Source: Chondrosia reniformis
Lineage: Eukaryota; Porifera; Demospongiae; Chondrillida; Chondrillidae
Assembly: GCA_947172415.1 (NCBI GenBank)
Contig: OX359199.1
Coordinates: 3,064,001 to 3,128,000, forward strand
Direction of reading: 5' to 3'
Length of the DNA: 64,000 bases
Shown here: in pieces, positions 2,054 to 50,165 of the stretch
Layout of the letters: each line of letters begins with the position of its first letter
How positions within the stretch are numbered: the stretch's first letter is position 1
Position numbers and translations under genes: made by a program
Notes under the pieces: generated by a model
The model's database searches: none
What the model saw: the letters and a program-made list of their open reading frames with translations, nothing else
What the model was told of the DNA's origin: nothing

Positions 2054-2422
2054 TAGTGAATCCTCGATTAAACAAACCTCAATTATCCGGATCCTCGATT
2101 ATCCAAATCACAAAATTACTTTACAAGTGATACGTGCATTACACAATTATGATACCAACGTATACAAATGTGTCATGTTTCAGTCGCGCTAATGTTTTTT
2201 GCTCGATCAAGAATGGCAGAGTCTACTAGCGCTCCGAAGCGAAAGAGAACAGTTTTAAGTATTAAATCAATAGGTGTTTTGTTGGCGTGCTTGATTGTTC
2301 AAAGAAATCGTTCTACTGTTCTACATATTTGATTGTATTTCACTTATCCTTACTTTTTCACTCATCCAAACAAAATGTTTATGCCATTTGACCAATGGGG
2401 TTTGAATTCCGAGGATTCACTG
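2054..2422 (+). mobile_element. Internally deleted pogo/Tigger-type DNA transposon
   Basis: A 369-bp non-satellite island has terminal inverted repeats, AGTGAATCCTCG at the left and CGAGGATTCACT at the right. It is flanked by TA on both sides (2052-2053 and 2423-2424), the target duplication used by the Tc1/mariner/pogo superfamily. The terminal sequence and the transposase start inside are of the Tigger type. Most of the coding region is missing, so it is non-autonomous. Confidence 0.85.
2213..2332 (+). pseudogene. Remnant of Tigger/pogo transposase N-terminus
   Basis: An ATG opens 39 codons beginning MAESTSAPKRKRTVLSIK. The basic PKRKR stretch followed by LSI is how Tigger/pogo transposases usually begin, just before the CENP-B-like helix-turn-helix. 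After about residue 20 the similarity is lost, and TGA follows at residue 40. The DNA-binding and DDE catalytic domains are gone. It lies inside the deleted transposon and is not a host gene. Confidence 0.6.
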
Positions 2423-5400
2423 TACATACAACTAGTACAAAGAACTTGTACAAACAATAGCACATACAACTACTACATACAACTACTACATACAACTAGT
2501 ACCTACAACTAGTACTTGCAAATTAGTACATATTTTGTAGTAGGAGTGTAGTACACACTCCTACTACATATAAGTAATATATAAAAATATGACTAGTACA
2601 TATACATAGTACATACACATAGCACATACAAATAGTACATACAACTAGTATTTACAACTAGTACATACAACTAGTGCATAAAATGAGTACATAAAACTAG
2701 TACATACAACTAGCAACTAGTCATTACAACCAGTATATATATAAAAGTAGTACATTTAACTAGTACATACAAATAGTATATACATACAACTAGTACATAC
2801 AACTAGCAACTAGTCATTACAACCAGTATATATATAAAAGTAGTACATTTAACTAGGACACACAAATAGTATATACATACAATTAATACATAAAATTAAT
2901 AGGTACAACTAGTTCACACAACTAGTAACTATCACATATAACTAGTACATACAACTACTACAATGAACAAGTACATACAACTAGTAACTACAACAAGTAA
3001 ATATAACTTGTACATACAAATGTTACACACAACTAGTACTTGCAACTAGTATATGCAACCAGTATCTAGTACATAAAACTACTACATACAACTAGTACAT
3101 ACAACTAGTACATAAAACTAGAACACACAACTAGTACACACAACTAGTACCCACAACTAGTATACACTCCTAGTACGTACATCTAGTTACTAGTACATGC
3201 AACTAGTAAATACAACTAGTAACTACCACTAGTATATATAACTAGTTCATACAACCATGACACACAACTAGTACATACAAGTAGTACTTTTATCTGCTTA
3301 CAACTAAGACATACAATTAGTGCATACAATAAGTATTTACAACTAGTTCATGTAACTACATACAACTAGTTTTTACAAATAGTACATACAACTAGTAAAT
3401 ACAGATTGTTACTAGTACATACGACTAGTACATGCAACTTGTACATACAGCTAGTATATAGTTCAAGTAGTATATACAACTAGTAAATATAACTATATAG
3501 TACCTACATCGATTCCCCACAATTAGTGTGTACAAGTAGTACATATAATTACATACAATTAGTACATACAACTAGTACATACAACTAGTCCATACAACTA
3601 GTCCATGCAACTGGTATATACATCTTGTACATACATCTTAGTTACTAGTACATGCAACTAGTACATCCAACTAGTAACTGCAAAAGTAAATATAAGTAGT
3701 ACATACAACTAAAACACACTAGTACTGCATAAAAGTAGGATATATATCTATAAACAATTAGCAAATACAACTGGCACATACAACTACTACATATATCTAG
3801 TTACTAGTACATTCAACAATTACACACAACTAGTTCATAGAAGTAGTACATACAACAAGTACATAAAACTAGTACATACAACAAGTTCATACAACTAGTA
3901 CAAATTGTTAGTACATACAACTAGTACATACATCTAATTTCTAGTACATGGAACTAGTAACTACAACTAGTACATATAACCATTATACACAACTATTACA
4001 TACAACTAGTACATAAATTTACATACATCTAGTGCATTCCATTAGTACATACAACTACTATTAGTAAATATAACTAGTACATACAGCAATTACATACAAC
4101 AAGTACATACAAGTAGTACATACAAGTAGTACATACAACTACACACAACTAGTATATACATAGATCTAGTACAGACAATTAATACATTCAGACACTTACT
4201 AATACATACAACTAGTACATACAACTAGTTAATAGTACATACAACTAGTGCCTAGAATTAGTACATAAATCTAGTACATATTACTAGTACATACAACTAG
4301 TACCTACAGCTAATAAATAACTAGTACATACAATTAGTACATAAAACAGGAACATACAACGAGCACATAACTTACAATTAATACATACAAACATGAAACT
4401 ACTACTTAGAATTGAGTACAAACAACTAGAACCTCCTACCAGTAAATAAAACGAGTCCTAGTACATAAAGCCAGAACATACAACTAGTAATGAGTACTTA
4501 CAAATATTACATACAACTAGTACATTCAATTAGTACATAAAATTGGTACATACAATCAGTACGTTCAAGTAGTATTACGATTAGGACATATAACTAGTAC
4601 ATACAACTAGTACAAATAACCTGTACATACAACTAGTAACTACAACTAGTAAATATAACTATAAAGTACATACACAATAACACACAACTAGTATTTACAA
4701 CTTGTAAATAAAACTAGAACATACAAGTAATATCTAGTACATTAAACTAGTACATACAAATAGTACAAACAACTAGTACATACAACTACTACATACATCT
4801 AGTTACTAGTACATTCATCAATTACACACAACTAGTTCATATAAGTAGTACATACAACAAGTACATTAAACTAGTACATACAACTAGTACATACATCTAA
4901 TTACTAGTACATGGGACTAGTAACTACAACTAGTACATATAACCATTATACACAACTATTACATACAGCTAATACATAAATCTACATACCACTAGTGCAT
5001 TCCATTAGTACATACTACTACTATTAGTAAATATAACTAGTACATACAGGATTACATACAACTAGTACATATAACTCGTACACACCACTAGTTACTAGTA
5101 CATAGAACAATTACACACACCTATATAGTTCTTACAAGTAGATTATATAACTACATAAAACTAGTACATTCAACTAGTATATACAACTATTAAATACTGA
5201 TTCTTACTAGGACATACAACTAGTACATACAACTCCTACAAACAACTAGTACATATAACTAGTACATGCAACTGCTTCCTAGTACATACAACTAGTACAT
5301 ACTACCAGTGCATAAACTATTTCATACGACCAGTACTACAATTAGCTCATAGAACTAATACATATAACCAGCACATATAGCTAGTTCATATGAATAGTAC

Positions 5401-8400
5401 ACATACCTAGTACATACAACTAGTACATATAATCAGTACATACATATATAACTAGTACATATGTATAGTACAAGTATACTACTAGTACATATATACAACT
5501 GATATATATACAACTAGTATATATAACAAGTACATAAAACTGTTACATATAACTGGAACATACAACTAGCACAAACCTAGTAATTACAATTAGTACATAC
5601 AATTAGAACATGCAACTACTACTTACAATTGAGTATATACAACTAGAACTTCCAACTAGTGAATATAAGAAGAGCTAGTACTTACAACTACTACATACAA
5701 CTAGTTACTAAGACATACAACTAACACACTCAACTAGTACACACATCTACTTATTAGTACATGCAACTAGAAGACACAAATTGTATATACAACTACTACA
5801 TATAACTTCTATAACTAGGACCTACAACTAGTACATTCAAGTAGTAAATACAGATTGTTACTAGTACGTACAACTAGAACATGCAACTAGAACATGCAAC
5901 TAGTACTTCTAACTAGTACATACAACTAGTACATAGAAGGAGTAACTACAAATAGTAAATATAACTTGTATATACAACTACTACATATGACTACCTATAA
6001 CTAGTACATACAACTAGTACATTCAAGTAATAAATAGAGATTGTTACTAGTACATACAACTAAAACCAGTACATATAAGTAGTACATTCAATTAGTTACT
6101 AATTCAAACAACTAGTACATGCAACTAGAAGCTACAACTAGTACAGAGAACTAGTACATATAAATAGTGTATATAACTAAAACATACGACTAGTTACTAG
6201 TACCTGCAACTAGTACATACAACTAGTACATACAACTAGTACCTACAACTAGTATATCTAACTAGTACATACGACTAGTTACTAGTACATAAAACTAGTA
6301 CATACAACTAGTACACACAACTAGTATATACAACTAGTAGATACATCAAGTTACTAGTACATGCAAATAGTATATACAAGTAGTACAAACAACTAATAAC
6401 TACAACTAGTACAAGTAAGTAGTACATACAACTAGTATATACAACTAGTAGATGCAACTAGTACATACAAGTAGTACTACCAACTAATAGCTACAACTAG
6501 TACAAATAATTAGTAAATACAACAAGTATATACAACTAGTACACACATATAACTAGTACATATAACTAGTACATACAACTAGTTACTAGTACATCCCACA
6601 ATTACACACAACTAGTACATAAACGTAGTACATATAGCAGTACATACAACTAGCACATACACCTAGAACACACAACTAGTACATACATCTAATTACTAGT
6701 ACTTTCAACTAGTACATACAATTAGTAACTACAACTAGTAAACATAACTAGTACATAAAACTAGTACATACATCTAATTACTAGTACATGCAACTAGTAC
6801 ATAAAACTTGTAACTACAACTAGTACATATAACCATTACACACAATTTTTACATACAACTAGTACAAACGTCTAATTACTAGTACTTACAACTAGTACAT
6901 ACAACTAGTAACTACTATTAGTTAATATAACTTACATAAAGCAATTAAACACAGCTAGTACATAAAAGTAGTACATAAAACTACTAGTATATACATAGAT
7001 CTAGTACAGAAAATTAGTACATACAGATAATTACTAGTACACACAACTAGTACATACAACTAGTACATTCAACTAGTTACTAGTACCTAGAACAATTACA
7101 CACACCTAGTACTTACAAGTAGAACATATAACTACATACAACTAATACATACAACTAATACATGCAATTAGTACATACAACTAGTATATCTAACTAGTAC
7201 ATACAAATAGTTACTAGTGCATAAAACTAGTACATACAACTAGTACATGCAACTAGAATGTACAACTAGTAGATACATCTACTTACTAGTACATGCAACT
7301 AGGACATACAAGTAGTATAAACAACTAATAACTACAACTAGTACAAATAAGTAGTACATACAACAATTACACGCAACTAGTACAACAACTAGTACATGCA
7401 ACTAGAATGTAAAACTAGTAGATACATCTACTTACTAGTACATGCAACTAGGACATACAAGTAGTATAAACAACTAATAACTACAACTAGTACAAATAAA
7501 TAGTACATACAACAATTACACGCAACTAGTACAACAACTAGTACATACAACTAGTAACTACAACTGGTAAATATAACAAGAACATAAAACCATTACACAC
7601 AACTATTACATACAACTAGTACATACAAATAGTACATACAACTAGGACATACAGATTGTTACAAGTAAATACAACTAAAACATACAATTGGTAAATCTTA
7701 TCACTACAACTAGGTCAAATAACTAGTTCATACAACAATTAAACACACTTAGTACATATAACTATTCCATACAATTAATATATACCACTAGTATCTAGTA
7801 CATAAAACTAGTACATACAACTAGTACATATAACTAATACATGCAACTAGTAACTACAACTAGTAAATATAACTGTATATACAACTAGTTCATATGACTA
7901 CCTACACTAGTATATATAACTACTACATTCAACTAGTTACTGGTACATAAAACTAGTATATACAACTAGAATATACAACTAGTACATTCAACTAGGACAC
8001 ACATCTAGTTACTAGTACATGCAACTAGTAGATACAACTAATAACTACAACTACTAAATATAATAAAATAAGTACATACAGCCATTTCACACATATATTA
8101 CATACAAGTACTACATATATTTGCATACAATTCGTATATACAGATAGTTACTAGTGTATTCAATTAGTACATAAAACTACTACATACAACTAATACATAT
8201 AACTACTACATACAACTAGTTACTAGTACATACAACTAGTACATTCAAATAATACATCCAACTAGTAACTTCAATTAGTAGGTACAACTAGTACTATAAC
8301 TAGTACAAAGAACTTGTACATACAACTATTACATACAACTGGTTACTACTGCAATCATCAACTCTGTACAACTAGTACATAAAAGGAGTTACTAGTACAT

Positions 8401-9014
8401 GCAACTTGTACAAATAACTAGTGTATACAACTAGTACAAAAAATAGTACATACATCTAGTGACTGGTATATACATTCAAGAACTAAATTTAACTAGTACA
8501 TACAACTAGTTACTAGTACATATAACTAGTACATACAACTAGTACATAGAACTTGTGCATAAAACTACATAGAAATAGTACATAAAGCTAGTATATACAA
8601 GGAGTAAATATAACTAGTACATACAACTATTACATATAACTAGTACAGGCAACTACTTACTAGAAAATACAACTAGTAAATACAATTAGTACATACAACT
8701 AATACATATTTCTAGTACATACAGCAATTACACAAAACTAGTACATACAACTTGTCCATATAACTATATACAACTAGTACATACAACTAGTAAATACAGA
8801 TTGTTTCCAGAACATACACATATACATACAACTAGTATATACAACTTCTAACTAAAACATATATACAACTAGTACATACAACTAGTACCTGCAACAAGTA
8901 AATACAACTAATACATACAACTAGTACATGCAACAATTGCTCACAATGAGTACATACAATTAGTACATATAACCAGTACATACAACTAGTATATGCAACT
9001 AGTATATACTACTT
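2423..9014 (+). repeat. 13-bp satellite, ACATACAACTAGT orientation (6.6 kb)
   Basis: A continuous degenerate array of the same monomer as 799-2053. Local duplications are visible, such as two copies of a roughly 100-bp block at about 2,700-2,890 and a near-perfect repeat around 7,230-7,530. No genes or other elements were found. Confidence 0.95.
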
Positions 9015-9035
9015 GTAGTACTAGTTGTATGAACT
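9005..9035. other. Orientation switch of the satellite
   Basis: Left of this point the monomer reads AACTAGTACATAC on the plus strand; right of it GTATGTACTAGTT. The junction is a small palindrome: CAACTAGTA and TACTAGTTG flank a few central bases around 9,010-9,030. Nothing else is inserted at the switch. Confidence 0.85.
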
Positions 9036-9328
9036 AGTTGTATGTACTATTCATACGTACAAGTTATATGTGTATGTTCTACTTATCCTTACTAGTTCTA
9101 TGTACTAGTTTTATGTAAGAGTTGTATGTATTAGTTGTATTTACTAGTTGTATGTACTAATTTTATGTACTCGTTGTATATACTAGTTGTATGTGCCAGT
9201 AGAATGTACTAGTTGTATGCATTAGTTATGTGTACTATTTGTATGTACTAGTTGTATGAACTTATTATATGTACTAGTTGTAAGTACTAGTATTATGTAC
9301 TAGTGGTAATCACTAGTTGTAAGAACTA
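9015..9328 (-). repeat. 13-bp satellite, opposite orientation
   Basis: Starts at the orientation switch and runs to the TA target of the MITE. It carries the landmarks TTATCCTTACTAG (about 9,084) and GGTAATCACTAG (about 9,306), which recur in later blocks. Confidence 0.93.
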
Positions 9329-10765: not shown

Positions 10766-11412
10766 TAATTGGATGTACTCATTGTATGTACTAGTGTATG
10801 TACTGGTTATATGTACTAATTGCACGTACTAGTTATATGAAATAGTTATAAACTAGTAGTATTTTGTAGTTATATGTGTATGCACTAGTTGTATGTACTA
10901 TTTATATATACTAGTTATATGTGTATCTTCTAGTTATTTTTACTAGTTGTATGTACTAGTTGTATGTATTAGTTTTATGTACTAGTTGTATGTACTAGTT
11001 ATATGTACTAGGTTTATGTACTAGTTGTATGTACTAGTTGTAAACACTAAATATGGAGTACTTGTTATATGTACTATTTTTATGTACTGGTTGTAAATTC
11101 TAGATATATGTATTGGTTGTATGTACTAGTTATATGTACTAGTGCTATGTCCTTGCTTTATGTACTACTTGCATATACTAGTTATGTACTAGTTGCATGG
11201 ACTAGTTGTATGTACTAGTTGTATGTCTTAGTTTTATGTACAAGTTGAATATACTAGTTATGTACTAGTGGTGTGTACTACCTTTATGAACTAGTTGTAT
11301 GTACTAGTAGTATTTACTAGTTATATGTGTATGTTCTAGTTATATATTCTACTTGTATGTACAAGTTGTATGTACTAGTTATGTATTAGTTGTATGTAGT
11401 ATTTATATGTAC
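10766..11412 (-). repeat. 13-bp satellite
   Basis: Collinear with about 25,918-26,420 in its left part. Its last 12 bases, ATTTATATGTAC, are the left copy of the target duplication of the ribozyme array. Confidence 0.92.
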
Positions 11413-11591
11413 TGACAAAGGGAGTTAATTGCACTAAGCCTGTGCAAAGGCTAAAATGATCAGAAATAATCACTGGAACGTATTACGCCATACCAGCCAA
11501 GTGACCAAAGTCTGATCTTGGCTGGGGGACCGAAGTCCTATTAAGTTGGCAACCAGTGATCGCCTCCCAGTCATCCAAAGATGGAAAAAAA

Positions 11592-11662
11592 TTCATCAAA
11601 GAACCACAGACAGCTGTTTCGCCCTCATTTGGGCTCATCAGTGTGGTACACTTCAATGATGG
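11592..11662 (-). ncRNA. Hammerhead ribozyme, unit 1
   Basis: Read on the minus strand: CTGATGA (11,641-11,635), stem II GCCC/GGGC with a six-base loop (11,634-11,621), GAAA, a minimal two-pair stem III (AC/GT) with an AGCT loop, then GTC at 11,611-11,609 as the cleavage triplet. Stem I pairs ACCACA before the core (complement of 11,642-11,647) with TGTGGT after the cleavage site (complement of 11,603-11,608), all six pairs perfect. Short stem III hammerheads of this kind in other animals often act better as dimers, which a tandem array would supply. Confidence 0.88.
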
Positions 11663-11950
11663 TAAATTGGATGACTGCCCTCACTTATAAATCCACCACA
11701 AGTGAAACACTTGTGGTTTCATTTTAAGTGAGGATGGAGGCTACAGTCTAAGTGAGACTGAGCACTCACAATGACAAAGGGAGTTAATTGCACTAAGCCT
11801 GTGCAAAGGCTAAAATGATCAGAAATAATCACTGGAACGTATTACGCCATACCAGCCAAGTGACCGAAGTCTGATCTAGGCTGGGGGACCGAATTCCTAT
11901 TAAGTTGGCAACCAGTGATCGCCTCCCAGTCATCCAAAAATGGAAAAAAA

Positions 11951-12021
11951 TTCATCAAAGAACAACAGACAGCTGTTTCGCCCTCATTTGGGCTCATCAG
12001 TGTGGTACACTTCAATGATGG
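11951..12021 (-). ncRNA. Hammerhead ribozyme, unit 2
   Basis: Same core, stem II and GTC site as unit 1. One base in the stem I strand after the cleavage site differs (AACAACA on the plus strand instead of AACCACA), giving a mismatch in the middle of stem I. Confidence 0.83.
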
Positions 12022-12308
12022 TAAATTGGATGACTGCCCTCACTTATAAATCCACCACAAGTGAAACACTTGTGGTTTCATTTTAAGTGAGGATGGAGGC
12101 TACAGTCTAAGTGAGACTGAGCACTCACAATGACAAAGGGAGTTAATTGCACTAAGCCTGTGCAAAGGCTAAATTGATCAGAAATAATCACTGGAACGTA
12201 TTATGCCATACCAGCCAAGTGACCGAAGTCTGATCTTGGCTGGGGGACCGAAGTCCTATTAAGTTGACAACCAGTGATCGCCTCCCAGTCATCCAAAGAT
12301 GGAAAAAA

Positions 12309-12379
12309 TTCATCAAAGAACCACAGACAGCTGTTTCGCCCTCATTTTGGCTCATCAGTGTGGTACACTTCAATGATGG
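12309..12379 (-). ncRNA. Hammerhead ribozyme, unit 3
   Basis: Core and stem I intact. Stem II has one mismatch at its loop-closing pair (plus strand CATTTTGG in place of CATTTGGG). Confidence 0.83.
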
Positions 12380-12667
12380 TAAATTGGATGACTGCCCTCA
12401 CTTATAAATCCACCACAAGTGAAACACTTGTGGTTTCATTTTAAGTGAGGATGGAGGCTACAGTCTAAGTGAGACTGAGCACTCACAATGACAAAGGGAG
12501 TTAATTGCACCAAGCCTGTGCAAAGGCTAAAATGATCAGAAATAATCACTGGAACGTATTACGCCATACCAGCCAAGTGACCGAAGTCTGATCTAGGCTG
12601 GGGGACCGAAGTCCTATTAAGTTGGCAACCAGTGATCGCCTCCCAGTCATCCAAAGATGGAAAAAAA

Positions 12668-12738
12668 TTCATCAAAGAACCACAGACAGCTGTTTCGCCC
12701 TCATTTGGGCTCATCAGTGTGGTACACTTCAATGATGG
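12668..12738 (-). ncRNA. Hammerhead ribozyme, unit 4
   Basis: All core bases and stems I and II match unit 1 exactly. It is one of the two best-preserved copies. Confidence 0.87.
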
Positions 12739-13026
12739 TAAATTGGATGACTGCCCTCACTTATAAATCCACCACAAGTGAAACACTTGTGGTTTCATTT
12801 TAAGTGAGGATGGAGGCTACAGTCTAAGTGAGACTGAGCACTCACAATGACAAAGGGAGTTAATTGCACTAAGCCTGTGCAAAGGCTAAAATGATCAGAA
12901 ATAATCACTGGAACGTATTACGCCATACCAGCCAAGTGACCGAAGTCTGATCTTGGCTGGGGGACCGAAGTCCTATTAAGTTGGCAACCAGTGATCGCCT
13001 CCCAGTCATCCAAAGATGGAAAAAAA

Positions 13027-13097
13027 TTCATCAAAGAACCACAGACAGCTGTTTCGCCCTCATTTTGGCTCATCAGTGTGGTACACTTCAATGATGG
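13027..13097 (-). ncRNA. Hammerhead ribozyme, unit 5
   Basis: Core and stem I intact. It has the same loop-proximal stem II mismatch as unit 3. It lies in the last direct unit, which ends early at the inversion point. Confidence 0.83.
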
Positions 13098-13411
13098 TAA
13101 ATTGGATGACTGCCCTCACTTATAAATCCACCACAAGTGAAACACTTGTGGTTTCATTTTACGTGAGGATGGAGGCTACAGTCTAAGTGAGACTTCGGAT
13201 CAGACTTCAGTCACTTGGCTGGTATGGCGTAATACGTTCCAGTGATTATTTCTGATCATTTTAGCCTTTGCACAGGCTTAGTGCAATTAACTCCCTTTGT
13301 CATTGTGAGTGCTCAGTCTCACTTAGACTGTAGCCTCCATCCTCACTTAAAATGAAACCACAAGTGTTTCACTTGTGGTGGATTTATAAGTGAGGGCAGT
13401 CATCCAATTTA

Positions 13412-13482
13412 CCATCATTGAAGTGTACCACACTGATGAGCCCAAATGAGGGCGAAACAGCTGTCTGTTGTTCTTTGATGAA
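13412..13482 (+). ncRNA. Hammerhead ribozyme in the inverted unit
   Basis: Here the ribozyme is on the plus strand: CTGATGA 13,433-13,439, stem II 13,440-13,453, GAAA 13,454-13,457, GTC 13,463-13,465. Stem I pairs ACCACA (13,427-13,432) with TGTTGT (13,466-13,471), with one mismatch, the same variant as unit 2. Confidence 0.83.
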
Positions 13483-13618
13483 TTTTTTCCATCTTTGGAT
13501 GACAGGGAGGCGATCACTGGTTGTCAACTTAATAGGACTTCGGTCCCCCAGCCAAGATCAGACTTCGGTCACTTGGCTGGTATGGCGTAATACATTCCAG
13601 TGATTATTTCTGATCATT

Positions 13619-13950
13619 ATTTATATGTACTATTTATATGTGTATGTTCTAGTTATCCTCACTAGTTCTATGTACAAGTTGTATGTACTAGTTGCATGTA
13701 CTACTTGTATGAAGTAGTTGTAAGTACTAGTTGTATGAACTAGGTCTATTTCTAGTTCTATATATTGGCTACTAGTTGTATGTACTAGCTTTTGTATATA
13801 CTAGTACTAGTTATATTTCCTAGTTTTAAGAAACTACTTGTGTGTACTAGTTGTATGTACTAGTTGTATGTGGTAGTTGTATATATTGGTTGAATTTACT
13901 TTTTGTATGTACTAGTGGTATGTACTAGTTGTATTTACTAGTTATATGTG
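13619..13950 (-). repeat. 13-bp satellite between ribozyme array and LINE
   Basis: Begins with the right copy of ATTTATATGTAC and ends with ATATGTG (13,944-13,950), the left target duplication of the LINE. Its first 170 bases align with 27,846-28,010. Confidence 0.92.
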
Positions 13951-14887
13951 CTGAAACTTCTACAAATGATCATCCTAGACCAAGCACAAGTGGCAATGAT
14001 CAACTGATGCAACTTTTAGGCAAAGCAAAAGATGCCTGTCTCCGAAAGAAACCTGGAGATTTCTCTGATAGAAAACCCTGTGGGGCTGTGTGGTTCAACC
14101 ATGTTGATACGGCACTTCTTCAGGAGGCCAATTATTGGGTGGAGAAAGAGTGGCAGGAAGGCCCTAGGTCGGCCTGGCACCTGAACTGCCTGGTCTACTC
14201 TGTTGCTATGGCTGTGAGGGGAAAAACAACCTATGAATCGCAGGCATGCAACCAGGGAAGGAAATCAGATAATCAGAAGGGAAGTAAGAGACAGGAAGGT
14301 CACATAAATGACAGGAAGGCCAAAGGCCTTAGGTTTAGAAGACTGCTGGCCTGGTTGGATGTGGAAATAGCACGTCAACAGAGTAATAAGCCTATGACCA
14401 AACGCCAGAAAGTACTCCGAAGAAAGCTTAGGAGGGAGTTCCATTCATTAAACCTGAATGTGCTGATTAGAGCTAGGGAACAGACACTGGGGAAACCCAG
14501 GGTCTGGACCCTACAAGAGCGAAGATCGGTTGACCGCAGGAAATTCCAGGAACAAAACCACCTTTGGAATACTCAAAGGAAGTTCCGGATGAATGGCAAT
14601 ATTCCAACCTCCAATGAAGCTCCCTCAATTGAGGTAGTAAGGGACTTTTGGACAAAGATTGTAGGTACTGTTGGTAAGGTCAACAAAGACGACCCAGGGG
14701 TGAAAGAATGGCTAAAGGAAACCAAGAAGAGGGTGGGTAGAACCTCCTCTGAAGGTCCCGATAGCACTGATGAGACCAAACTGAGGAAAGCCTTAAAAAG
14801 GCAAAAGCTGGTTAGCTCATGGGCCGGATGGCATCCACACTTTTTGGTGGAAAGCACTCCCCTCTGCACAGTCTGCCTTGGCAGATG
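13951..14887 (+). pseudogene. RLE LINE, N-terminal linker before reverse transcriptase
   Basis: The open frame starts inside satellite; true element coding begins at AETSTNDHPRPST. It contains a lysine/arginine-rich stretch (TKRQKVLRRKLRREF, about residue 160) and VVRDFWTKIVG, a motif seen just before the reverse transcriptase in this LINE group. Near 14,812 the frame shifts: the other frame gives GPDGIHTFWWKALPS, the usual start of the polymerase fingers. The coding sequence is then interrupted after ALADE by the PLE fragment at 14,888. The apparent stop at 14,886-14,888 belongs to the shifted frame. Confidence 0.75.
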
Positions 14888-15124
14888 AAAAATCTAAGAT
14901 ACCATTTTCCTACATGCTATATGCCTATTCTGTAAAAAGAGCCTATAGGGGAACTAAACCTAAAGAGAGCTTTAGATGAAGATACAGTAGTCTTTTCTTC
15001 CTTCTTTTCCCTTCTTTCATCTTCTTCTCCACTGGGTCAGACAGCCGTTTCTGGGAATTCCACCCTGCATCAGTGATCCTGGGAGTCTTTGTCTTTTTCT
15101 TTATCTTGATCTTCTGTGAATCCT
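14888..15124 (-). mobile_element. 5'-truncated 3' end of the second PLE lineage, inserted in the LINE
   Basis: These 237 bases match 40,247-40,483 at about 97%, which is the 3' end of the minus-strand PLE-like element there. A third, shorter copy is at 57,117. All three start at the same base (AAAAATCTAAG, the element's 3' terminus) and differ only in where the 5' side is cut, the hallmark of target-primed reverse transcription. The junction with the LINE shares AATCC with the element, a small microhomology. Confidence 0.78.
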
Positions 15125-16503
15125 GTACTACAGAGGGTGGTGAGCGGGGATCTGTCAGTCCCAGACTGGCTTACAAGGGGTCGCACACTACTCATCCCCA
15201 AAAAGGGTGACCCGAAAAGTGTTGCCAACTACGGACCTATTGCGTGTCTCAACACAATGTACAAGGCTGTCACAGCATATATTGCATCAGAACTACTCAC
15301 TTACATCTACACTAACGATCTTTTACCTATGGCTCAACGAGCCATGAGGAAAGGGAGGTGGGGCTGTGTGGACTGTCTATTGCTGGATCAATCGATGCCA
15401 AAATTATGGGCAAGCGACTTAGTGTGGCATGGATCGATTATTAGAAGGCATATGACAGAGTCCCTCACAAGTGGGTGATGAAGGTGCTAAAAACCATCAA
15501 GTGCCCCGGTTGGATCCAGAGGCCTATAGAGCTCTTCTCCAAACAATGGGCTACTGTGCTTCAGTTGAGGACTGCAGGGAAGGTGGTTAGGAGCACCCTT
15601 GTTAAATATAACAGGGGACTCTTCCAAGGAGACTCCTTATTGCCACTCGTCTTTTGTCTGGCCATAGATCCCTAATCCCAAGTTCTTAACAGAACCAAGG
15701 GACATACCCTCTGGCATAATGGGGAACGGAACACCATGTCACACTTGTTGTACATGGATGACCTTAAGATATATGCTGGAGGGCCTGATAAACTCAGGGA
15801 AGCCATGGAATGTGTGGAGAAAACATCAAATGCCATTGGCATGAGGTTTGGAGTGAGAAAGTGTGGAACAGCTCACATGCAAAAGGGGAAAGTTCTGGCT
15901 GGCCCAGACAACCCTGAACGCAGTGAAGAATCCATAAGGAGCCTTGAAAAAGGTACTACTTATAAGTACCTAGGGCTAGAACAACTGTTTGAGGTAGATG
16001 ACAGCAAGGTCAAAGCTTGCTTGATCAACGAATTGAGGAGGAGACTCCACAAAGTGTGGGGCTCTCACCTCAATGGTAAGAATGCTGCAGAAGCCTCTAA
16101 CATGTTGTGTGCCTCTCTATTGAGATACTCTTACCCAGTTTTGAAGTGGACTCAAGGTGAACTTCCAAAACTGGACCGAATGGTGAGAAAGATCATGAGA
16201 AAGTACCAGTGTCATCACTATAACTCTGCCATTGAAAGAGTGAACTTGCCTCGCTCTCAAGGTGGTAGAGGGCTCTGTAGTTTTCCTTTGGATCACGAAA
16301 GGACTGTTGTGAATCTGGCAAGATACCTCCATACTGCCAATGATCCACTCGTAGCTGTTGTGGTTAAACACCAAAAGTGGCTGGAGTGCTCAAAGCAGAG
16401 GAGGACTGTCTTGAAAGAAGCCAGATTGATACTGGGAAGCCACGGAATAGAACCGGAAATGTTGCTGAAGACAGATCCCTCACAAAATAGTGTAAGAGAA
16501 TGA
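15116..16503 (+). pseudogene. RLE LINE reverse transcriptase and thumb
   Basis: Frame pieces carry WLTRGRTLLIPKKGDP (finger motif 1), YGPIACLNTMYK, WID..KAYDRVPHKW (motif A), GLFQGDSLLPLVF (motif B) and LLYMDDLKIYAGG (motif C, catalytic YMDD at about 15,751-15,762). Then comes a thumb with KYLGLEQ, as in R2-group enzymes. Breaks seen: a shift in the DQS region near 15,390, a TAG within motif A at 15,440-15,442, a TAA after FCLAIDP at 15,674-15,676, and TGA after NSVRE at 16,501. The enzyme would nick-prime and copy LINE RNA at its target; this copy cannot encode it. Confidence 0.85.
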
Positions 16504-17485
16504 GGGAGAGTGGCACGTGAGCTCCAGGAGGCTCAGACTGAAAGGTTAAAAAGTAACCTAGCCGAATAGTCTCACTAGGGCTCATACCACAGACAAGTCA
16601 CAAATAGGGAGTCTTATGTGTGGCTTTCTGAGGGGAGACTCAGACCTCAAACTGAGGCTCTGATTCTCGCAGCCCAAGATGATGTGCTGCACACTAGGTG
16701 GTACCGAAATAGGATTCTGAAGAATTCTAGCCTCCTGATGTGCAGAGAATGTGGCATGGCTATGGAAACTACTAAACATGTGTGAGCCCAAGGGATTTTC
16801 TCTCTACAAAGAGAGACATGACCGGGTGATACTGATTGTGTTGTGGAGACTGTTGAAAGAATATGGATTTAAGCAGGAAGAGCCCTGGTACAAACTAGAA
16901 GCAAAACCAGTCTATGAGAATAGGTCTGTCAAAATCTTGTGGGATCCTAGTATCCCTACAGATGATGAAATGACAGAAAGAATACCAGACTTAGTGGTTG
17001 AGGATCGGCTATGTAAGTCCATCTTCATTATTGAGATGTCAGTTCCTACTGACAGCAATATTAATGGAAGATGGCAAGAGAAGTTCCAAAAGTACCAGAA
17101 GCTGGCGGCTGATATGAGGAAACAATTTAGGGGCTACCGAATTAAGGTAGTCCCGATGATAATTGGTGCTTTGGGGACAGTGGACACGCTCCTGGAAGAC
17201 CTTAGGGGAATTCCGAAGCTGTCAAAAAGTGCAGTAGAAGTGATGAGAACCATGCAGAGAACTGTTCTCTGTTCGGCTGTGAGGATATTGAGGCGACATC
17301 TATCTGTTGAGGGATTGGGGCCTGGACGATATGTAGTCTTGTCCCATTCCTTGCCTGTCGACCTCTGGAAAGCAGTGGTGGATTGGTGTATGGAGGTACT
17401 CCCTCCTATTATGACGGTCAACTTTGGCCCGACGTGCATCTGTCTGCTGCTGCTGGAAGGAGGCAAAGCCGAGGCTTCTGGCTAA
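16504..17485 (+). pseudogene. RLE LINE zinc knuckle and restriction-like endonuclease
   Basis: After RWYRNRILKN (about 16,700) comes LLMCRECGMAMETTKHV, a CCHC knuckle start (C-x2-C then H). The endonuclease follows: IPDLVVED (about 16,984-17,007) supplies the PD, IIEMSVP the acidic residue, and KYQKLAADMRK the downstream lysine region. KVVPMIIGALGTV is also typical of the group. Stops break the segment around 16,567-16,577. The last frame closes with TAA at 17,483-17,485. In intact relatives this nuclease cuts the target site next to the polymerase. Confidence 0.83.
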
Positions 17486-17600
17486 AAACCCAAAGAAAGG
17501 AAAACATAACTGACTGAGGGTTGTCCAAGCCGGATACTCCATGCCTTAGTAAACTAAGGCAAGAAGTAAGAAGGTTCTCTGTAAAGGCTTTTGTTTCTAA

Positions 17601-20600
17601 ATATGTGTATGTTCTAGTTATATGTTCTACTTGTATGTACAAGTTGAATGTTCTAGTTATGTATTAGTTGTATGTAATATTTAAATGTACTAGTTATATG
17701 TGAATGTTCTAGTTATCCTTACTAGTTCTAAGTTGTTGTTTGTACGCGTTGTATGTACTACTTGTATATACTGTTTGTATGTACTAGTTCTATGTTCTGA
17801 TTTTATATACAATTTATACGTACTAGTTGTATGTACTAGTTATATATACTATTTATATGCACTAGTTTTATGTGTATGCTCTAATTGTATGTACTACTGG
17901 TATGTAAAATTGTAGGTACTAGTTGTATTTACTAGTTGTATGTGCTAGTTATATGTACTAGTTGCATAGAGTAGTTGCATGTACTAGTTGTAGGTGTTAT
18001 TTATATGTACCAGTTTTATTTGAATGTTCAAGTTATCTGTACTAGTTGAATGTACAAGTTGTATGTAATAGTTATTTGTATAGTAGTTGTATGTACTAGT
18101 TATATGTACTTGGTGCATTTACTAGTTGAATGTAATTGTTGTAAACACTAGCTATAGTGAACCAGTTATATGTACTCTTTGTTTGCACTGGTTGTATGGT
18201 CTAGACATATGAACTGGTTCTATGGACTAGTGTATGTACTAGTTATATGGACTAGTGTATGTACTAGTTATATGTACTAGTTGTATGTACTCTTTATATG
18301 TACTAGTTGCATGTACTAGCTGTAATCACTACTTATAGGTATTAGTGATATGTAATAGTTGTATGTACTAGTTGTTTGTACTAGTTGTATGTACTATTCA
18401 TATGTACACGTTATATGTGTATGTTCTGGGTATCCTTACTAGTTTTATGTACGAATTTTATGTACTAGTTGTATGAACTAGTTAAATGTACTAGTTGTAT
18501 GTACTACTTGTATGTACTAGCGGTAATCACTTGTTATAGGTACTAGTTAAATGCACAGGTTTTATGTACTAGTTGTATGTACTAGTTGTATATGGTAGTT
18601 GTATTTACTTGTTGCATATACTAGTTATGTACTAGTTGTATTTACTAGTTTTATGTACTAGTTGTATGTACTAGTTGTACGTATTGGTTGAATGTACTGT
18701 TTGTATGTACTAGTTGTATGTCCTAGTTATATGTGTATATTCTAGTTATATATTCTACTTGTATATACAAGTTGTAAGTACTAGTTATGTATTCGTGGTA
18801 TGTAGTATCTATATGTACTAGTTATATGTGTATGTACTAGTTATATGTTCTAGGTGTATGTACAATTTGTGCATACTAGATGTATGTACTAGTTGTATGT
18901 ATCAGTTGTCTGTACTAGTTGTATGTACCAGTTGCATGTACTAGTTGTATGTATCAGTTGTTTGTACTATTTGTATGTACAAGTTGTATGTGTATGTTCT
19001 AGTTATCCTTACTAGTTTTATGTATAACTTTTATGTACGACTTGTCTGTACTAATTGTATGAACTAGTTATATGTACCTGTGGTATGTACTAGTGGTGAT
19101 CACTAGTTGTAGGTACTAGTTGTACATACTGTTTGTATATTCTAGTTGTATGTATTAGTAATATGTACTGGTTGTATATACTAGTTATAGGTACTAGTTG
19201 CAGATACTAGTTTTGTACTAGGTATATGGGGCAGTTGTATGTACTGTTTGTATGTACTGTTTGTACGTACTAGTCGTATTTACTAGTTGTAGCTTCTAGT
19301 GGTAATCACTAGTTATAGGTACTAGCTATATGTACTAGTTGTAGATACTAGTTGTACATACTAGTTGTTTATTCTTGTTGTATGTACTAGTTATATGTAC
19401 TACTTGTATGTACTAGTTGTTCGTACTATATAGATATAAATTCTAGTTGTATGTACTAGTAATATTTACTTGTTGTATGTAATAACTTTATGTACTAGTT
19501 GAATGTCCTAGTTTTATATACTAGTTGTATATAGTAATTATGTACTAGTTGTATGTACTAGTTGCATGTATTGGTTGTATTTACTGATTGAATGTACTTG
19601 TTGTTTGAACTGGTTGGATGTAATATTTATATTTACTTTTCGTATGTACTAATTATATGTACTATTTATAAGGACTAGTTATATGTGTATGTTCTAGTTA
19701 TATGTATGTACCAGTTGTATGGATTAGTTGTATGTACCAGTTGTATGTATTATTTGTATGTACCAGTTGCAGGTACTAGTTGTATGTACTAGTTGTATTT
19801 AATATTTATATGGACAAGTTATATGTGTATATTCTAGTTATCCTTAGTAGGTCTATGTACAAGTTGTATGTACGAGTTATATATACGAGTTTTATGTACT
19901 AGTTGAATGTACTAGTGGTAATCAGTAGTTATATTTACTAGTTTTATGTTCTAATTGTATGTACTACTTGGACGTACTAGTTGTATATCAAGTTGTGTGT
20001 CATAGTTTTATGTTCTAGTTGCATATACCAGTTGTGTGTCATAGTTTTATGTTCTAGTTGCATATACCAGTTATGTACTAGTTGTATGTAATATTTATAT
20101 GTACAAGTTATGTGTGTATATTATAGTTATCCTTAGTAGGTCTATGTACAAGTTGTATGTACGAGTATTATGTATGAGTTTTATGTACTAGTTGTATGTA
20201 CTAGTTGTATATTCAAGTTTTATGTACTAGTTGTAAGGACTAGTTATCTGTACTAGTTATATGTACTATTTATATGAACTAGGTATATGTACTATTCATA
20301 TGACTAGTTAAATGAGTATGTTCTAGTTATATGTACTAGTTGTAGTTTGTATGTACTAGTTATACGTATTGGTTGAATGTCCTGTTTGTATGTACTAGTT
20401 GTATGTACTAGTTATTTGTGTATATTCAAGTTTTATGTTCTACTTGTATGTACAAGTTGTAAGTACTAGTTATGTATTCGTTTTATGTAGTTTCTATATG
20501 TACTAGTTATATGTGTGTATACTAGTTAAAATAACTAGGTGTACAATTTGTGCTTACTAGATGTATGTACTAGTTGTATGTACCAGTTGCATGTACTATT

Positions 20601-21206: not shown

Positions 21207-22022
21207 TATCTTTGTAAAGGTTCATCTTTCGACTTTTTGACATCTAGAGACGCAGTTTTTCGATTCTTCTGTCTGCCAAATGTTTTGACCCTGGGGGTCT
21301 TCTTCAGTGACTGGTGTTGGTCTTCAAGGTGTCTTCATTTATAGGCATCTTTTCCTGCCATTTTCAATTACCTTATCAGTGATGTCATCGGTTACATCAT
21401 TTCCGGAGGAAGGAGAGGTGAAGGGAGTTTTCATAAAAACGGGTTTCCAACCACTTCTTAGTACAATTCCTTGATCTAAGTTCATTCTTACCTGACATTG
21501 TTGGATCTTCAGGGCTTCCTTAATTATTCTTCTGTACCAGTTCTCTTCCCTCTCCACCACTCTGGCTTGCCTCCACTCAATTGGATGGCCAGTTTTTAGG
21601 GAGTGAACAGCTAAGCCATTGTTCACATCCCCATCCTGACGGCACGTTTGTGCTCCGCCATCCTGACTTTTAGTGTTCTTCCAATTTCTCCAGTGTACAC
21701 TGCAGGACAACTAGAACAGGGGATCTGGTAAACGACACCTTTAATATCCATGGTAGGCAGGGGTTGTTTAGGCCAAATAGGATACTCCTCAGTGATCTCT
21801 GCTTTGTGAAGATGGTTTCGATGTTCATCTTCCGGCATATTCTGGAGATCTTTTCACTGAGGCCTTTCACATATGGAATAAAAAGTTTACATTCACCATC
21901 TATCCTACTTCCCTGGTTCCGTTATCTCTTCTTCATGTGCCTAGCAGCAACCTTACTGGGGTATCCGTTGGCCTGGAGTACCCTTTCCACATTCCACAGG
22001 TTGACATCATTGCGGGGACAGA
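21207..22022 (-). mobile_element. Inverted 3' part of a GIY-YIG Penelope-like element
   Basis: The reverse complement matches about 23,250-24,020 of the adjacent plus-strand copy at high identity. It covers the end of the RT-EN protein (GVVYQIPCSSC, YTGEIGRTLKVRMAEHKRAVR, MNLDQGIVLRSGW) and the tail with the GAAGACCC stem. It lies head to head with that copy, both 3' ends facing outward, an arrangement common for Penelope elements, which often carry partial inverted copies at their 5' side. It lacks the last part of the 3' tail. It is broken. Confidence 0.85.
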
Positions 22023-22155
22023 ATCCTTAGCTCGTTACTTACCTGGTCACCAGGGAGAACAACTCAGGAGTGAAGTCCAATGATGCCTGTCAAAAGCTGG
22101 TGTCCCGAGCCCTAATCTGACCAAACGTCAGACAGCAGCCATCAAGGAGCTCAAG

Positions 22156-22925
22156 GTGGACTCTGATACCATCATTCTTCCAGCAGACAAGGGAAATGCC
22201 ACAGTCCTCCTGGACAAAGAAGAGTACGACCCCAAAGTAAGGGACCTTTTGGATGATACAAGCTATCAACCAATCAAAAAGAACCCAACATTGAAAATAG
22301 AACGGAAGGTAACTGAAGTTCTCCGGTCACTGGAAAAGAATAGCAAACTCCCCAATGATCTGAGGAAGAGGGTTCAGAACCAACAGAGCTCCACCCCCAG
22401 TTATATGGACTCCCAAAGATCCATAAGGCCAGTTGCCCCTTAAGACCTGTTGTTTCCTCTATAAACTCCCCTACCTACCACCTATCAAGATATCTGGCGA
22501 ATATCCTGTCACCCCTGTTGGGGAAAGCTCCTCACTTTGTGAGGAACTCAGAGGACTTTGTGAAGAAAATCAGGAGATTACAAGTAGAGAATGAAGATAA
22601 GTTAATCAGTTTTGATGTGAAGAGATTGTTTACGAAGGTACCTATAGATCTCTCCTTACAGATTATTGATAGGAGGCTGAGGGAAGACAACACCCTATCA
22701 GGCCAGACCACTCTGGACCCTCCCACCATCACAATGCTCACAGAACTCTGTCTTAGGACAACGTACTTCCAGTACGGTAACGAGTTCTTTGAGCAGAAGG
22801 ATGGGGCAGCCATGGGCTCTCCTCTCTCTCCGTGGTAGCAAACATCTTCATGGAAGAATTTGAAAACCAAGCCCTCCAGGAGGCTGGCTCCAAACCTAGG
22901 CTCTGGCTACATTATGTAGACGACA
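22156..22925 (+). pseudogene. Penelope-type reverse transcriptase region
   Basis: The N-terminal PLE hallmark IILPADKGNATVLLDKEEY is followed by the palm: ISFDVKRLFTKVPID (motif A with catalytic Asp), DGAAMGSPLSP (motif B) and LHYVDDTFVIW (motif C, YVDD) near 22,905-22,935. The enzyme belongs to the telomerase-related PLE reverse transcriptases and would act by target-primed synthesis. It is not intact. Confidence 0.82.
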
Positions 22926-23151
22926 CCTTTGTCATCTGGAGCTAAGGTAGGGATCAGCTGGAGGATTTCTGTCTTTCCTTAATGGAAGACACGGAAACAT
23001 CCAGTTCACCATGGAGGAGGAGACAGATGGCTCTATCCCGTTTCTTGATGTGCTAGTGAAGAAGAACAGAGGAAGTTTGAGTACATCCGTGTACAGAAAA
23101 CCAACCCACACGGATTGATACCTTCACTTCTCATCTCATCACCATCCTAGG

Positions 23152-23893
23152 GTGAAAGCTGGCATTGCCCTTTACCTCAGGGACAGAGCGGAGAAGATCT
23201 GTGGTGCTGGATCCAGTGTCCTCCAAGAGGAAAAGGAGCACCTGAAAGGGGTACTCCAGGCCAACGGATACCCCAGTAAGGTTGCTGCTAGGCACATGAA
23301 GAAGAGACAATGGAACCAGGGAAGTAGGGTAGATGGTGAATGTAAACTTTTTATTCCATATGTGAAAGGCCTCAGTGAAAAGATCTCCAGAACATGCCGG
23401 AAGATGAACATCAAAACCATCTTCACAAAGCAGAGATCACTGAGGAGTATCCTATTTGGCCTAAACAACCCCTGCCTACCATGGATATTAAAGGTGTCGT
23501 TTACCAGATCCCCTGTTCTAGTTGTCCTGCAGTGTACACTGGAGAAATTGGAAGAACACTAAAAGTCAGGATGGTGGAGCACAAACGTGCCGTCAGGATG
23601 GGGATGTGAACAATGGCTTAGCTGTTCACTCCCTAAAAACTGGCCATCCAATTGAGTGGAGGCAAGCCAGAGTGGTGGAGAGGGAAGAGAACTGGTACAG
23701 AAGAATAATTAAGGAAGCCCTGAAGATCCAACAATGTCAGGTAAGAATGAACTTAGATCAAGGAATTGTACTAAGAAGTGGTTGGAAACCCATTTTTATG
23801 AATACTCCCTTCACCTCTCCTTCCTCCGGAAATGATGTAACCGATGACATCACTGATGAGGTAATTGAAAATGGTAGGAAAAGATGCCTATAA
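23152..23893 (+). pseudogene. Penelope linker and GIY-YIG endonuclease
   Basis: A conserved linker (KGVLQANGYPSKVAARHM, CKLFIPYVKGLSEKI) leads to the endonuclease: GVVYQIPCSSCPAVYTGEIG carries the G-V-Y and Y-T-G tracts of the GIY-YIG fold plus two cysteines of the PLE zinc-binding motif. LKVRM.EHKRAVR and SLKTGHPIEW follow. This is the nickase that opens target DNA for PLE integration. The C-terminal part matches 21-332 and the inverted copy at 21,339-21,838. It is a broken copy. Confidence 0.83.
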
Positions 23894-24061
23894 ATGAAGA
23901 CACCTTGAAGACCAACACCAGTCACTGAAGAAGACCCCCAGGGTGGAAACGTTTGGCAGACAGAAGAATCGAAAAAACTGCTTCTCTAGACGCTCTGAAA
24001 GTCGAAAGATGAACCTTTACAAAGATAAGTTCGACGCAGTTAAAAGAAATCCTTATTCCAT

Positions 24062-27368: not shown

Positions 27369-30300
27369 AAGTATGAATTCGCTACTAGTTGTATGTATAT
27401 ACCAGTTTTTTTATATACTAGTACGAGTTAAATTTACTAGTTGTAAGTATTGGTTTTATATATTAGTTGTATATACTAGTTTTATGTTCTAGTTTTATGT
27501 ATCAGTCGGATGTTCTGGTTATATTAATTAATTGTAGGTACTAGTTGTATGTATTAGGTATATGCACTAGTTGTGCGTACTCATTACTAGTTGCATGTAA
27601 TAGTTGTATGTTCTAATACGAGTTATATTTCCTAGTTTAAGGAACTTCTTTTATGTACTAATTGTATGTACTAGTTTTATGTACTAGTTGTATGTGCTAG
27701 TTGTATGTATTGGTTGAATTTACTGTTTGTATGTACTAGTGGTATGTACTAGTTGTATTTACTAGTTATATGTGTATGTTCTAGTTATATGTTCTACTTG
27801 TATGTACAAGTTGTATGTACTAGTTATGTATTAGTTGTATGTAGTATTTATATGTACTATTTATATGTGTATGTTCTAGTTATCCTTACTAGTTGTATGT
27901 ACAAATTGTATGTACTAGTTGCATGTACTACTTGCATGAAGTAGTTGTAAGTACTAGTTGTAGGAAATAGGTCTATTTCTGGTTGTATGTATTCGCTACT
28001 AGTTGTATATACTAGTTATGTATTAATTGTATGTAGTATTTATATGTACTAGTTTTTTGTGTATGTTCTAGTTATCCTTACTAGTTCTATGTACAAGTTG
28101 TATGTACGCATTGTATGTACTACTTGTATAAACTAGTTTTATGTACTAGTTGTATGTACTTGTTGTAGGCACTAGTGGTAATCACTAGTTAAAGGTATCA
28201 CTTATATGTACTAGTTGTAGGTAATACTTATAAATTTCAGTTGTATGTTCTAGTAATATATACTGGTTGTATGTACTAGCTTTATGTGCTAGTTGAATGT
28301 CCTAGTTTTATGTACTAGTTGCATATACTAGTTATGTACTAGGAGTATGTATTAGTTGTATGTACTGGTAGTATGTACTATTTATATGGCCTAGTTATAT
28401 ATACTGTCAATATGTACTAGTTATATTTGTATGTTCCAGTTATATGTACCTGATTGTATGTACTAGTTGTAGTACTAGTTGTATGTACTAGTTGTATCTA
28501 CTAGTGGTATTGACAAATTACTTGTTGTATGTACAGGTTGTATATTCTATTTGTTTGTACTAGTGCTATGTACTAGTTATAAATACTAGTTGTATGTACT
28601 AGTTGTATGTACTAATTGTATGTACTAGTTGTATGTACTAGTTGTATGTACTACGTGTATGTACTAGTTGTATATACTAGTTTTATTTACTAATTGTATG
28701 TACTAGTTGTATCTACTAGTTGCATGTACAAATAACTAGATGGATGTACTAACTTGTATGTTCTAGTTGTATGTACTAGTTCTATTTACTTGTTATAGTA
28801 CTAATTGTATATACTAGTTTTAATACTAGATGCATGTACTAGTTGTATGTTCTAGTTATATTTACTAATAGTATGTACTAGTTGTATGTACTAGTTTTAT
28901 GTCCTAATTACTAGTTGTATGTACTTATTATATGTACTAGTTCTATGTACAAGTTGTAGTACTAGTTGTATGTACTAATTTTAAATACGAGTTATAAATC
29001 CTAATTGTATGTATGAGTTGTATATATATATACTAGTATTTAATTCAAGTACATACAACAAGTATATACATGTACTAGTTATATGTAATAGTTTTGTGTA
29101 CTAGTTATATGTACTTGTTGCATGTACTAGTTGTGTGTACTGGATGTATCTACTAGTACAAGTTATATTTACTAGTTGTAGGAACTAGTTGTATAGAGTA
29201 GTTGTATGTACTAATTGTATGAACCAGTTATTGATGTTCTATTTTCTTGTTTTATGTAGTAGTTATATATACCAGTTGTACTAATTGTATGTAATAGTTG
29301 TATATACCACGTGTTTGTACTAGATATGTACCAGTTGTATGTACTAGTTGTATGTACTAGCTATGCACTAATTGTAGGTTCTAGTACTAGCTATAAAAGG
29401 TTCTAGGAACGTACGAGTTGTATGTACCAGCTGTTTGTACTGGTTGTATGAACTAGTTGTATGTGCTACTTGTGTGTACTAGTTTTATGTATTAGTTGTA
29501 TGTACTAGTTGTATCTACTAGCTATGCACTAATTGTAGGTTCTAGTACTAGCTATAAAAGGTTCTAGGAACGTACGAGTTGTATGTACCAGCTGTTTGTA
29601 CTGGTTGTATGAACTAGTTGTATGTGCTACTTGTGTGTACTAGTTTTATGTATTAGTTGTATGTACTAGGTGTATGTAATAGTTGTATGTACTAATTGAA
29701 TGAACTAGTACTATATAATTGTATTTACTTGTTGCATGTAGTAGTTGTAGATGCTAGTTGTAAATACTGGTCGTGTGTACCAGTGGTATGTACTACTTTT
29801 ATGTCCTAGTTGTATGTCATAGATGTATGTAGTAGTTAGAAGTTGTATGAACTAGTTGTATGTTCTAGTTGTATGGACCAGCTATATGTACTAGTTATTT
29901 GTACTATAGAGTTGTATGAACTACTTATATGGACTAGTTGTATGTACTAGTTATATGTACTAGTTCTATGTACTAGTTTTAGAAGTAGTTGAATGTACTA
30001 GTTTTATGTACTAATTACTAGTTGTATGTACTGGTCGTATATTCTATTTGTATGTACTAGTGATATGTACTAGTTAATAAATACCAGTTGTATGTACTGG
30101 TTGTATATACTAGTTGTATGAACTAGTTTTATTACTGGTTCTATGTACTACTTGTATGTTCTAGTTTCTAGTGGTTTGTACTACTTGTTGTGTTTACTAG
30201 TTGTATGCACTACTCTTATGTACCTGTTGTATGTACTTGTTTTATGTACTAGATGTATGCACTAGGTGTGTGTACTATTTAGATGAACTAGTTATATGTG

Positions 30301-47399: not shown

Positions 47400-47434
47400 G
47401 ACTGGAGAGAGAAAAAGAGCAAGCAAGATTAAGA

Positions 47435-50161: not shown

Positions 50162-50165
50162 CCAG

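Follow-up and report, generated by a model that had tools for sequence, protein, structure and literature searches.

The subject of this report is a block of tandem units with hammerhead ribozymes in a window of 64,000 nucleotides from the sponge Chondrosia reniformis (contig OX359199.1; all coordinates below are those of the window). The block extends from 11414 to 13617, interrupts a satellite of 13-bp repeats and has features described for retrozymes. Five units of about 359 bp (D1 to D5) follow one another in the same direction, an inverted piece of 1.17 units is joined head-to-head to the last of them, and the same 14 bp occur at both ends of the block:

11400..11413, no strand: left copy of the putative target-site duplication, 14 bp, TATTTATATGTACT (empty-site comparison)
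11414..13617, minus strand (hammerhead sense of the main array): whole putative retrozyme insertion, 2204 bp, GC 44% (empty-site comparison)
11413..11771, minus strand: direct unit D1, 359 bp, which begins with the T that ends the left duplication
11772..12130, minus strand: direct unit D2, 359 bp
12131..12488, minus strand: direct unit D3, 358 bp
12489..12847, minus strand: direct unit D4, 359 bp
12848..13194, minus strand: direct unit D5, which the head-to-head junction truncates to 347 bp
13195..13617, plus strand: inverted 1.17-unit piece, joined head-to-head to D5
13618..13631, no strand: right copy of the putative target-site duplication, 14 bp, TATTTATATGTACT (empty-site comparison)
27730..28008, plus strand: satellite paralogue of the target site without the insertion; alignment to the joined flanks ungapped, 265/279 identical

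The direct units start at 11413, 11772, 12131, 12489 and 12848, that is with spacings of 359, 359, 358 and 359, and Tandem Repeats Finder (TRF) assigns to the array a period of 359, 5.0 copies and 98% matches. An earlier note on this DNA had described six tandem copies of 358-359 bp, which holds for the five direct units, while the sixth copy is not in tandem with them and belongs to the inverted piece. The GC fraction of the insertion is 0.439, and no open reading frame (ORF) of at least 120 amino acids is present between 11414 and 13617 when all six frames are read from stop to stop. No layout of the long terminal repeat (LTR) kind is apparent in the insertion.

Consider now the 13-bp satellite that surrounds the block. 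When the two flanks are joined through one copy of TATTTATATGTACT, they align without gaps across the join to the satellite at 27730-28008, with identity at 265 of 279 positions. Comparison of all duplication lengths between 0 and 40 (41 values) gives 239 identities of 250 for a length of 14 and 211 for the runner-up, and when satellite ends are drawn at random, an exact match of at least 14 bases occurs in 0.34% of 200,000 draws. The length is 14 in five of the eight best paralogue pairs listed and differs in the remaining three. On these alignments the block 11414-13617, with the inverted piece included, is best read as a single insertion with a 14-bp target-site duplication. The empty state of the site is a reconstruction, since the sequence at 27730-28008 is a paralogue of the site and not an allele of it.

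Hammerhead ribozymes of the array

The Rfam model of the type I hammerhead, RF00163, matches all six copies, five on the minus strand and one on the plus strand, with E-values from 6.9e-05 to 0.01 in a search of the whole 64-kb window at a maximum E-value of 5:

11603..11647, minus strand: type I hammerhead of D1, 34.6 bits, predicted cut between plus-strand coordinates 11608 and 11609
11962..12006, minus strand: type I hammerhead of D2, 31.2 bits, one stem I mismatch
12320..12364, minus strand: type I hammerhead of D3, 28 bits, lacks the last pair of stem II
12679..12723, minus strand: type I hammerhead of D4, 34.6 bits
13038..13082, minus strand: type I hammerhead of D5, 28 bits, lacks the last pair of stem II
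13427..13471, plus strand: type I hammerhead of the inverted piece, 31.2 bits, one stem I mismatch

The Rfam gathering score for RF00163 is 34 bits, which two of the six hammerheads reach (34.6 bits); the other four, each with one helix pair lost, remain below it. Because the copies are about 98% alike, the six matches are not independent of each other. The earlier note had placed a complete hammerhead in every unit, and for the direct units the covariance model agrees, with minus-strand matches in all five and scores above the gathering score in D1 and D4. The core letters CTGATGA, GAAA and GTC are identical across the six copies. A strict motif scan finds four of the six and nothing else in the window, with no match in 20 mononucleotide shuffles of a control that comprised 23,340 bases of non-satellite DNA, and a second scan with other limits finds two of the six together with a motif at 366-394, with no match in 60 dinucleotide shuffles of the window.

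Stem I of the hammerhead is made up of six pairs and five further pairs, with an interior loop of 9 + 4 nt between them, stem II has four pairs and a 6-nt loop, and stem III consists of an A-U pair and a C-G pair closed by the palindromic tetraloop AGCU. Stem I had been said to look covarying, a description that does not survive counting: none of the 17 pairs is changed on both sides, and there are three distinct sequences among the six hammerheads. The count neither supports nor contradicts the hammerhead. Successive hammerheads on the minus strand are separated by 359, 358, 359 and 359 nt, and from these distances it follows that a minus-strand transcript would give four monomers of 358-359 nt if each hammerhead cuts.

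How a unit may fold is exemplified by D4, the only unit folded (359 nt). Its computed structure beats 100 of 100 shuffles on each strand, with a z value of -6.35 for the minus strand and -6.74 for the plus strand. The compact folding that the earlier note had ascribed to the unit is therefore found in D4, but the opposite strand folds equally well, and because both strands beat all their shuffles, compactness gives no preference for one strand over the other. The circular unit reaches its minimum energy (-124.9 kcal/mol) in a structure other than the full hammerhead; when the hammerhead is imposed, the energy is -117.5 kcal/mol, a cost of 7.4 kcal/mol in a calculation that leaves tertiary contacts aside. 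Nor is the full hammerhead the minimum in any of the isolated 70-mers of D1, D2 and D3, among which D1 comes nearest.

Computed energies are unfavourable for the stem III hairpin (+2.4 kcal/mol) and amount to -11.1 kcal/mol for the 8-bp duplex that two copies would form. A similar stem III is described in PMC7229834 for the HHR_Amex1 class of newt and axolotl hammerhead repeats, where a single pair is closed by a palindromic tetraloop and where cutting is poor for the hammerhead alone and good for the dimer. The pair count in that source is taken here to omit the A-U pair, and with this reading the present stem III likewise has one pair beyond A-U and a palindromic tetraloop (AGCU); the repeats, 330 bp in axolotl and 359 bp here, are compared by description only. 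From a weak and self-complementary stem III like that of the newt type, dimeric hammerhead cutting would be expected in tandem transcripts, and by this analogy and the computed energies such transcripts are predicted to be cut by hammerheads that act in pairs.

Kinship with described elements

Metazoan non-LTR retrozymes are described in passages of Cervera and de la Pena 2020 (PMC7229834) as non-coding tandem repeats of about 150-450 bp, with GC below 50% and a type I hammerhead in each unit, without LTR, tRNA primer site or polypurine tract, and with a duplication of more than 4 bp when there is one. The same passages mention Penelope-like elements (PLEs) in the same genome, tertiary contacts between the loops of stems I and II, self-cleavage and abundant circular RNA. 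Five of these features, namely the type I hammerhead, the tandem unit size, the GC content, the lack of a long ORF and the duplication, are found in the array, and the earlier note's filing of it with metazoan retrozymes and hammerhead satellites fits those published features that could be checked. Likened in this way, by described features and not by unit sequences, the array is probably a metazoan non-LTR retrozyme. As in the described elements, its tandem units are a few hundred base pairs long, and presumed PLE-like elements are nearby. It differs by its inverted partial unit, head-to-head with the array, of which no counterpart was found in the main text of PMC7229834. No report of a head-to-head retrozyme was found in the literature searched either, which was covered mostly at the level of listings and not in its supplements, and the literature search gave no paper that treats a hammerhead together with twin priming.

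The likeness to PLEs concerns the layout. As here, PLEs have tandem copies with a head-to-head inverted piece, a short duplication and a type I hammerhead, and internal RNA-3' ends that are offset by a few tens of bases, according to passages of PMC3846280 and PMC11167929. The retrozyme hammerhead differs from the minimal motif of PLEs by its stem III and by the interior loop of its stem I, and since the insertion contains no ORF for a reverse transcriptase or a GIY-YIG endonuclease, the retrozyme is not itself a PLE. Plant LTR retrozymes, the subject of Cervera 2016 (PMC4918200), are non-autonomous elements with hammerheads and circular RNAs. Their hammerheads are of type III, they have LTRs and their duplication is 4 bp, in contrast to the type I hammerheads, tandem units and 14 bp found here (passages of PMC7229834 and PMC7761336), and by its type I hammerhead and its 14-bp duplication the present element is not one of them. 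Schistosome W-elements, likened here by description, are satellite-like repeats of which some have hammerheads and for which one exemplary target-site duplication is given; in contrast to the present case, a head-to-head layout is not seen in the part of their description drawn on (PMC8490949).

Edges, template and mover of the insertion

When the insertion is read in the hammerhead sense, the RNA-3' side of the main array is at 11414, which is unit position 2, and that of the inverted piece is at 13617, which is unit position 44. At either edge the insertion ends with an RNA-3' side that falls within the monomer; the two positions differ by 42 nt, and each edge has one base that overlaps the duplication. 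The hammerhead is predicted to cut at unit position 197, so that neither edge corresponds to a cleavage end, and since both are inside the monomer, copying seems to have started within a monomer, on a circle or on a multimer. The array and the inverted piece abut head-to-head at 13194/13195, where GACT is found as a microhomology and the origin of a few bases is unclear.

The differences among the units bear on the nature of the template. An alignment of D1 to D5 with the inverted piece, the latter in two parts, has 17 variable columns. In columns 106 and 108 the variation is confined to the final bases of the inverted part, at the ragged junction, and is probably not genuine, and column 107 differs at the junction and also between D2 and D4 on the one hand and the rest on the other. 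Five variable sites are common to at least two units; four-gamete conflicts occur in 5 of the 10 site pairs, and two sites are fully linked. Private variants distinguish the inverted piece, which is not a copy of D5. A single monomeric circle, copied repeatedly, is rejected in its simple form, for it would leave only private differences, and the units share incongruent variants. A dimeric circle in strict ABAB order, suggested by the alternating variants of D2/D4 and D3/D5, is also rejected, as D1 and the inverted piece break the pattern. The shared variants would fit a template transcribed from a heterogeneous array, a switch from circle to circle during copying, or gene conversion after the insertion.

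For comparison of the anatomy, the window offers an element that is not part of the retrozyme:

21207..24059, plus strand: broken PLE-like element, 7.6 kb from the retrozyme, recognized from weak profile matches and from motifs

On its 5' side this element has an inverted 784-bp piece, head-to-head and 97% identical to its own 3' part, and of its two ends only the direct one has a tail, of 32 nt. A second PLE-like 3' end extends from 1 to about 503, where the similarity to the 21-24-kb element (72% identical) stops, and includes at 366-394 on the plus strand a PLE-type minimal hammerhead with four pairs in stem I and five in stem II; the stretch of the 21-kb element that resembles a hammerhead looks decayed. 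Frame 22359-22838 matches RVT_1 (0.069) and the group II intron reverse transcriptase (0.011), and frame 23478-23606 matches GIY-YIG (0.12), all below the curated cut-offs (Pfam, NCBIfam). Frame 22359-22838 has no match in PDB, and frame 3-230 none in Pfam or NCBIfam. Both 21207-24059 and 1-503 are presumed to be PLE-like in part from motifs and from layout. Because a head-to-head inverted piece occurs in the retrozyme insertion as well as in the 21-kb element, the layouts of these neighbours match.

Inserts of PLEs are described, in passages of PMC3846280, as direct repeats with an adjacent inverted repeat, mostly head-to-head, with duplications of 8-10 bp in some cases and none in others, and with an optional 31-bp tail on one end. 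For one PLE enzyme it is reported (PMC11167929) that both strands are cut and extended, that copying begins at two neighbouring internal sites of its RNA, with the tail made up of the bases between these sites, and that unprocessed RNA serves as the main substrate. PLEs have also been proposed as the movers of metazoan retrozymes, on account of shared hammerheads, tandem copies and co-existence (passages of PMC7229834).

These observations can be joined in a reading that we consider likely: a retrozyme, a non-coding and non-autonomous retroelement with a hammerhead every 359 nt of its transcripts, was integrated by a target-primed reverse transcriptase, which belonged to a PLE more probably than to a long interspersed nuclear element (LINE). 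Minus-strand transcripts of an array would be cut after GUC, probably by hammerheads paired through their self-complementary stem III, and the resulting monomers could circularise. At a staggered cut in the AT-rich satellite, a retrozyme RNA of several units would be copied by a target-primed reverse transcriptase, and copying would start inside a unit from both sides of the cut, self-priming being an alternative to the latter. The outcome would be a direct array with an inverted piece head-to-head, inside a 14-bp target-site duplication. That the machinery was that of a PLE, where one enzyme cut and primed both strands with internal starts 42 nt apart, and where the template was a heterogeneous multimer or a set of circles between which the enzyme switched, is put forward tentatively, at somewhat less than an even chance.

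A mover of LINE type, with an APE endonuclease, would nick the target, copy by target priming and through twin priming leave a duplication and an inverted 5' piece. The head-to-head inversion, the 14-bp duplication and the GACT microhomology fit twin priming, and reverse-transcriptase fragments of another element are present at 13950-17606 (RVT_1 at 7.1e-06 and 0.014, below cut-off). The comparison of the retrozyme end with the 3' ends of the two PLE-like copies in the window gave no similarity, 70% and 91% of 2,000 shuffles scoring as high, and it is this lack of shared sequence that keeps a LINE among the candidates; a stem-loop at the retrozyme tail is not notable (z = -1.13). Both edges are internal to the monomer, however, the RNA-3' edge lacks poly(A), and the PLE-like element in the window has the matching head-to-head layout and a one-sided tail, so that a LINE appears unlikely to have been the mover, though it has more in its favour than the explanations that follow. 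An ordinary satellite, amplified by unequal crossing-over and with the hammerhead as a relic or neutral passenger, would account for the incongruent variants shared among tandem units (5 sites with four-gamete conflicts), which recombination or gene conversion would give. Such a simple satellite should have no duplication or insertion boundary. The array has only five direct units, bounded by a 14-bp duplication with an empty-site paralogue, blastn finds no other copy of the 359-bp unit in the 64-kb window, and CTGATGA, GAAA and GTC are unchanged in every copy, which makes this explanation improbable.

The inversion could also be ascribed to a later rearrangement, or to an assembly artefact, of a plain tandem insertion. 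Errors in long reads or in assembly can create inverted repeats of this kind, and the junction does have a short microhomology with its few bases of unclear origin. The private variants of the inverted piece, which is not a copy of D5, argue against such an origin, as does the duplication, which sits exactly at the outer end of the piece; from this position it follows that the inverted piece belonged to the insertion, and a later or artefactual inversion is very improbable. An integrated exogenous circular RNA, viroid-like or delta-like and not a host retroelement, would share with small circular RNAs the compact fold, the hammerhead and the unit size. The Rfam hammerhead is on one strand only of each unit, though, and the layout agrees with that of the described metazoan retrozymes. 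Narrow searches found no match to the hammerhead core or the gapped core pattern in viral_contigs and none to two units (717 bases) in phages, and a gapped core pattern had no match in genome_contigs. An origin of this kind is scarcely credible.

Several points weigh against the likely reading, i.e., a retrozyme integrated by a target-primed, probably PLE-derived, reverse transcriptase. Twin priming of a LINE also leaves a head-to-head inversion with a duplication of such length. The full hammerhead is the minimum-energy fold neither of the circle nor of the three 70-mers, on a 359-nt circle the chance of the 42-nt offset between the edges is 0.24, and the five shared sites with their four-gamete conflicts are not expected from one monomeric circle that is recopied. 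The empty site is represented by a satellite paralogue and not by an allele. The identity of the PLE-like elements rests on profile matches below cut-off, on layout and on motifs; the duplication of the 21-kb element itself is unclear, with its top rows (-38 and -25) in the 13-bp satellite, and the retrozyme end is unlike the PLE-like 3' ends in the window. In rotifers, according to passages of PMC3846280, PLE mobility relies on element-specific termini and endonuclease-deficient PLEs have not been seen to be cross-mobilised, while a gene moved between PLE termini is reported in the same work. There, too, head-to-head repeats are explained through self-priming on an antisense template, and some inserts are without duplication (passages of PMC3846280), from which it follows that priming on both strands is not the sole route to a head-to-head layout.

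Other elements of the window and the mobility of retrozymes

The 13-bp satellite fills much of the window, its TRF rows covering about 55%. It switches strand near 9,010, between a stretch at 793-9017 and one from 9002 onwards, and weak matches to microRNA families lie around the switch, at 8950-9071. The stretch 13950-17606, with its interrupted open frames and weak RVT_1 matches, is inserted in this satellite as well, and the satellite at 27657-27894 aligns across its site. Three places, 40244-40483, 14887-15125 and 57115-57219, share a repeat of at most 240 bp with an identity of 93-97%; it sits inside the 13950-17606 element and at the edge of an element near 40 kb. In that region a minus-strand frame of 404 amino acids (40982-42196) looks by eye like a reverse transcriptase, with matches below cut-off to RdRP_1 (5.2e-04) and Drt2 (3.3e-04); it has no match in PDB and is left unclassified.

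A 45-bp repeat array of about 19.5 copies, at 43143-44034, has a consensus unlike that of the 13-bp satellite. Nearly identical open frames occur in opposite orientation at 46410-52771 (plus strand) and 61192-63469 (minus strand), including one of 319 amino acids at 50748 and at 62510, as judged by eye. The former region has matches to PIF1 helicase, DUF6570 and STPR, and looks Helitron-like; in the latter, the part that was scanned (61596-62411) has no profile match.

As movers of metazoan retrozymes, PLEs are named as strong candidates in passages of PMC7229834. The retrozyme of this window is in itself ordinary for its kind, and it is the scar of its integration that is unusually readable. 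The duplication, the empty-site paralogue, the inversion and the edges inside the monomer make the question whether PLEs are the movers a testable one, and the variants shared among the units bear on the template, that is, on whether a circle or an uncleaved multimer was copied.

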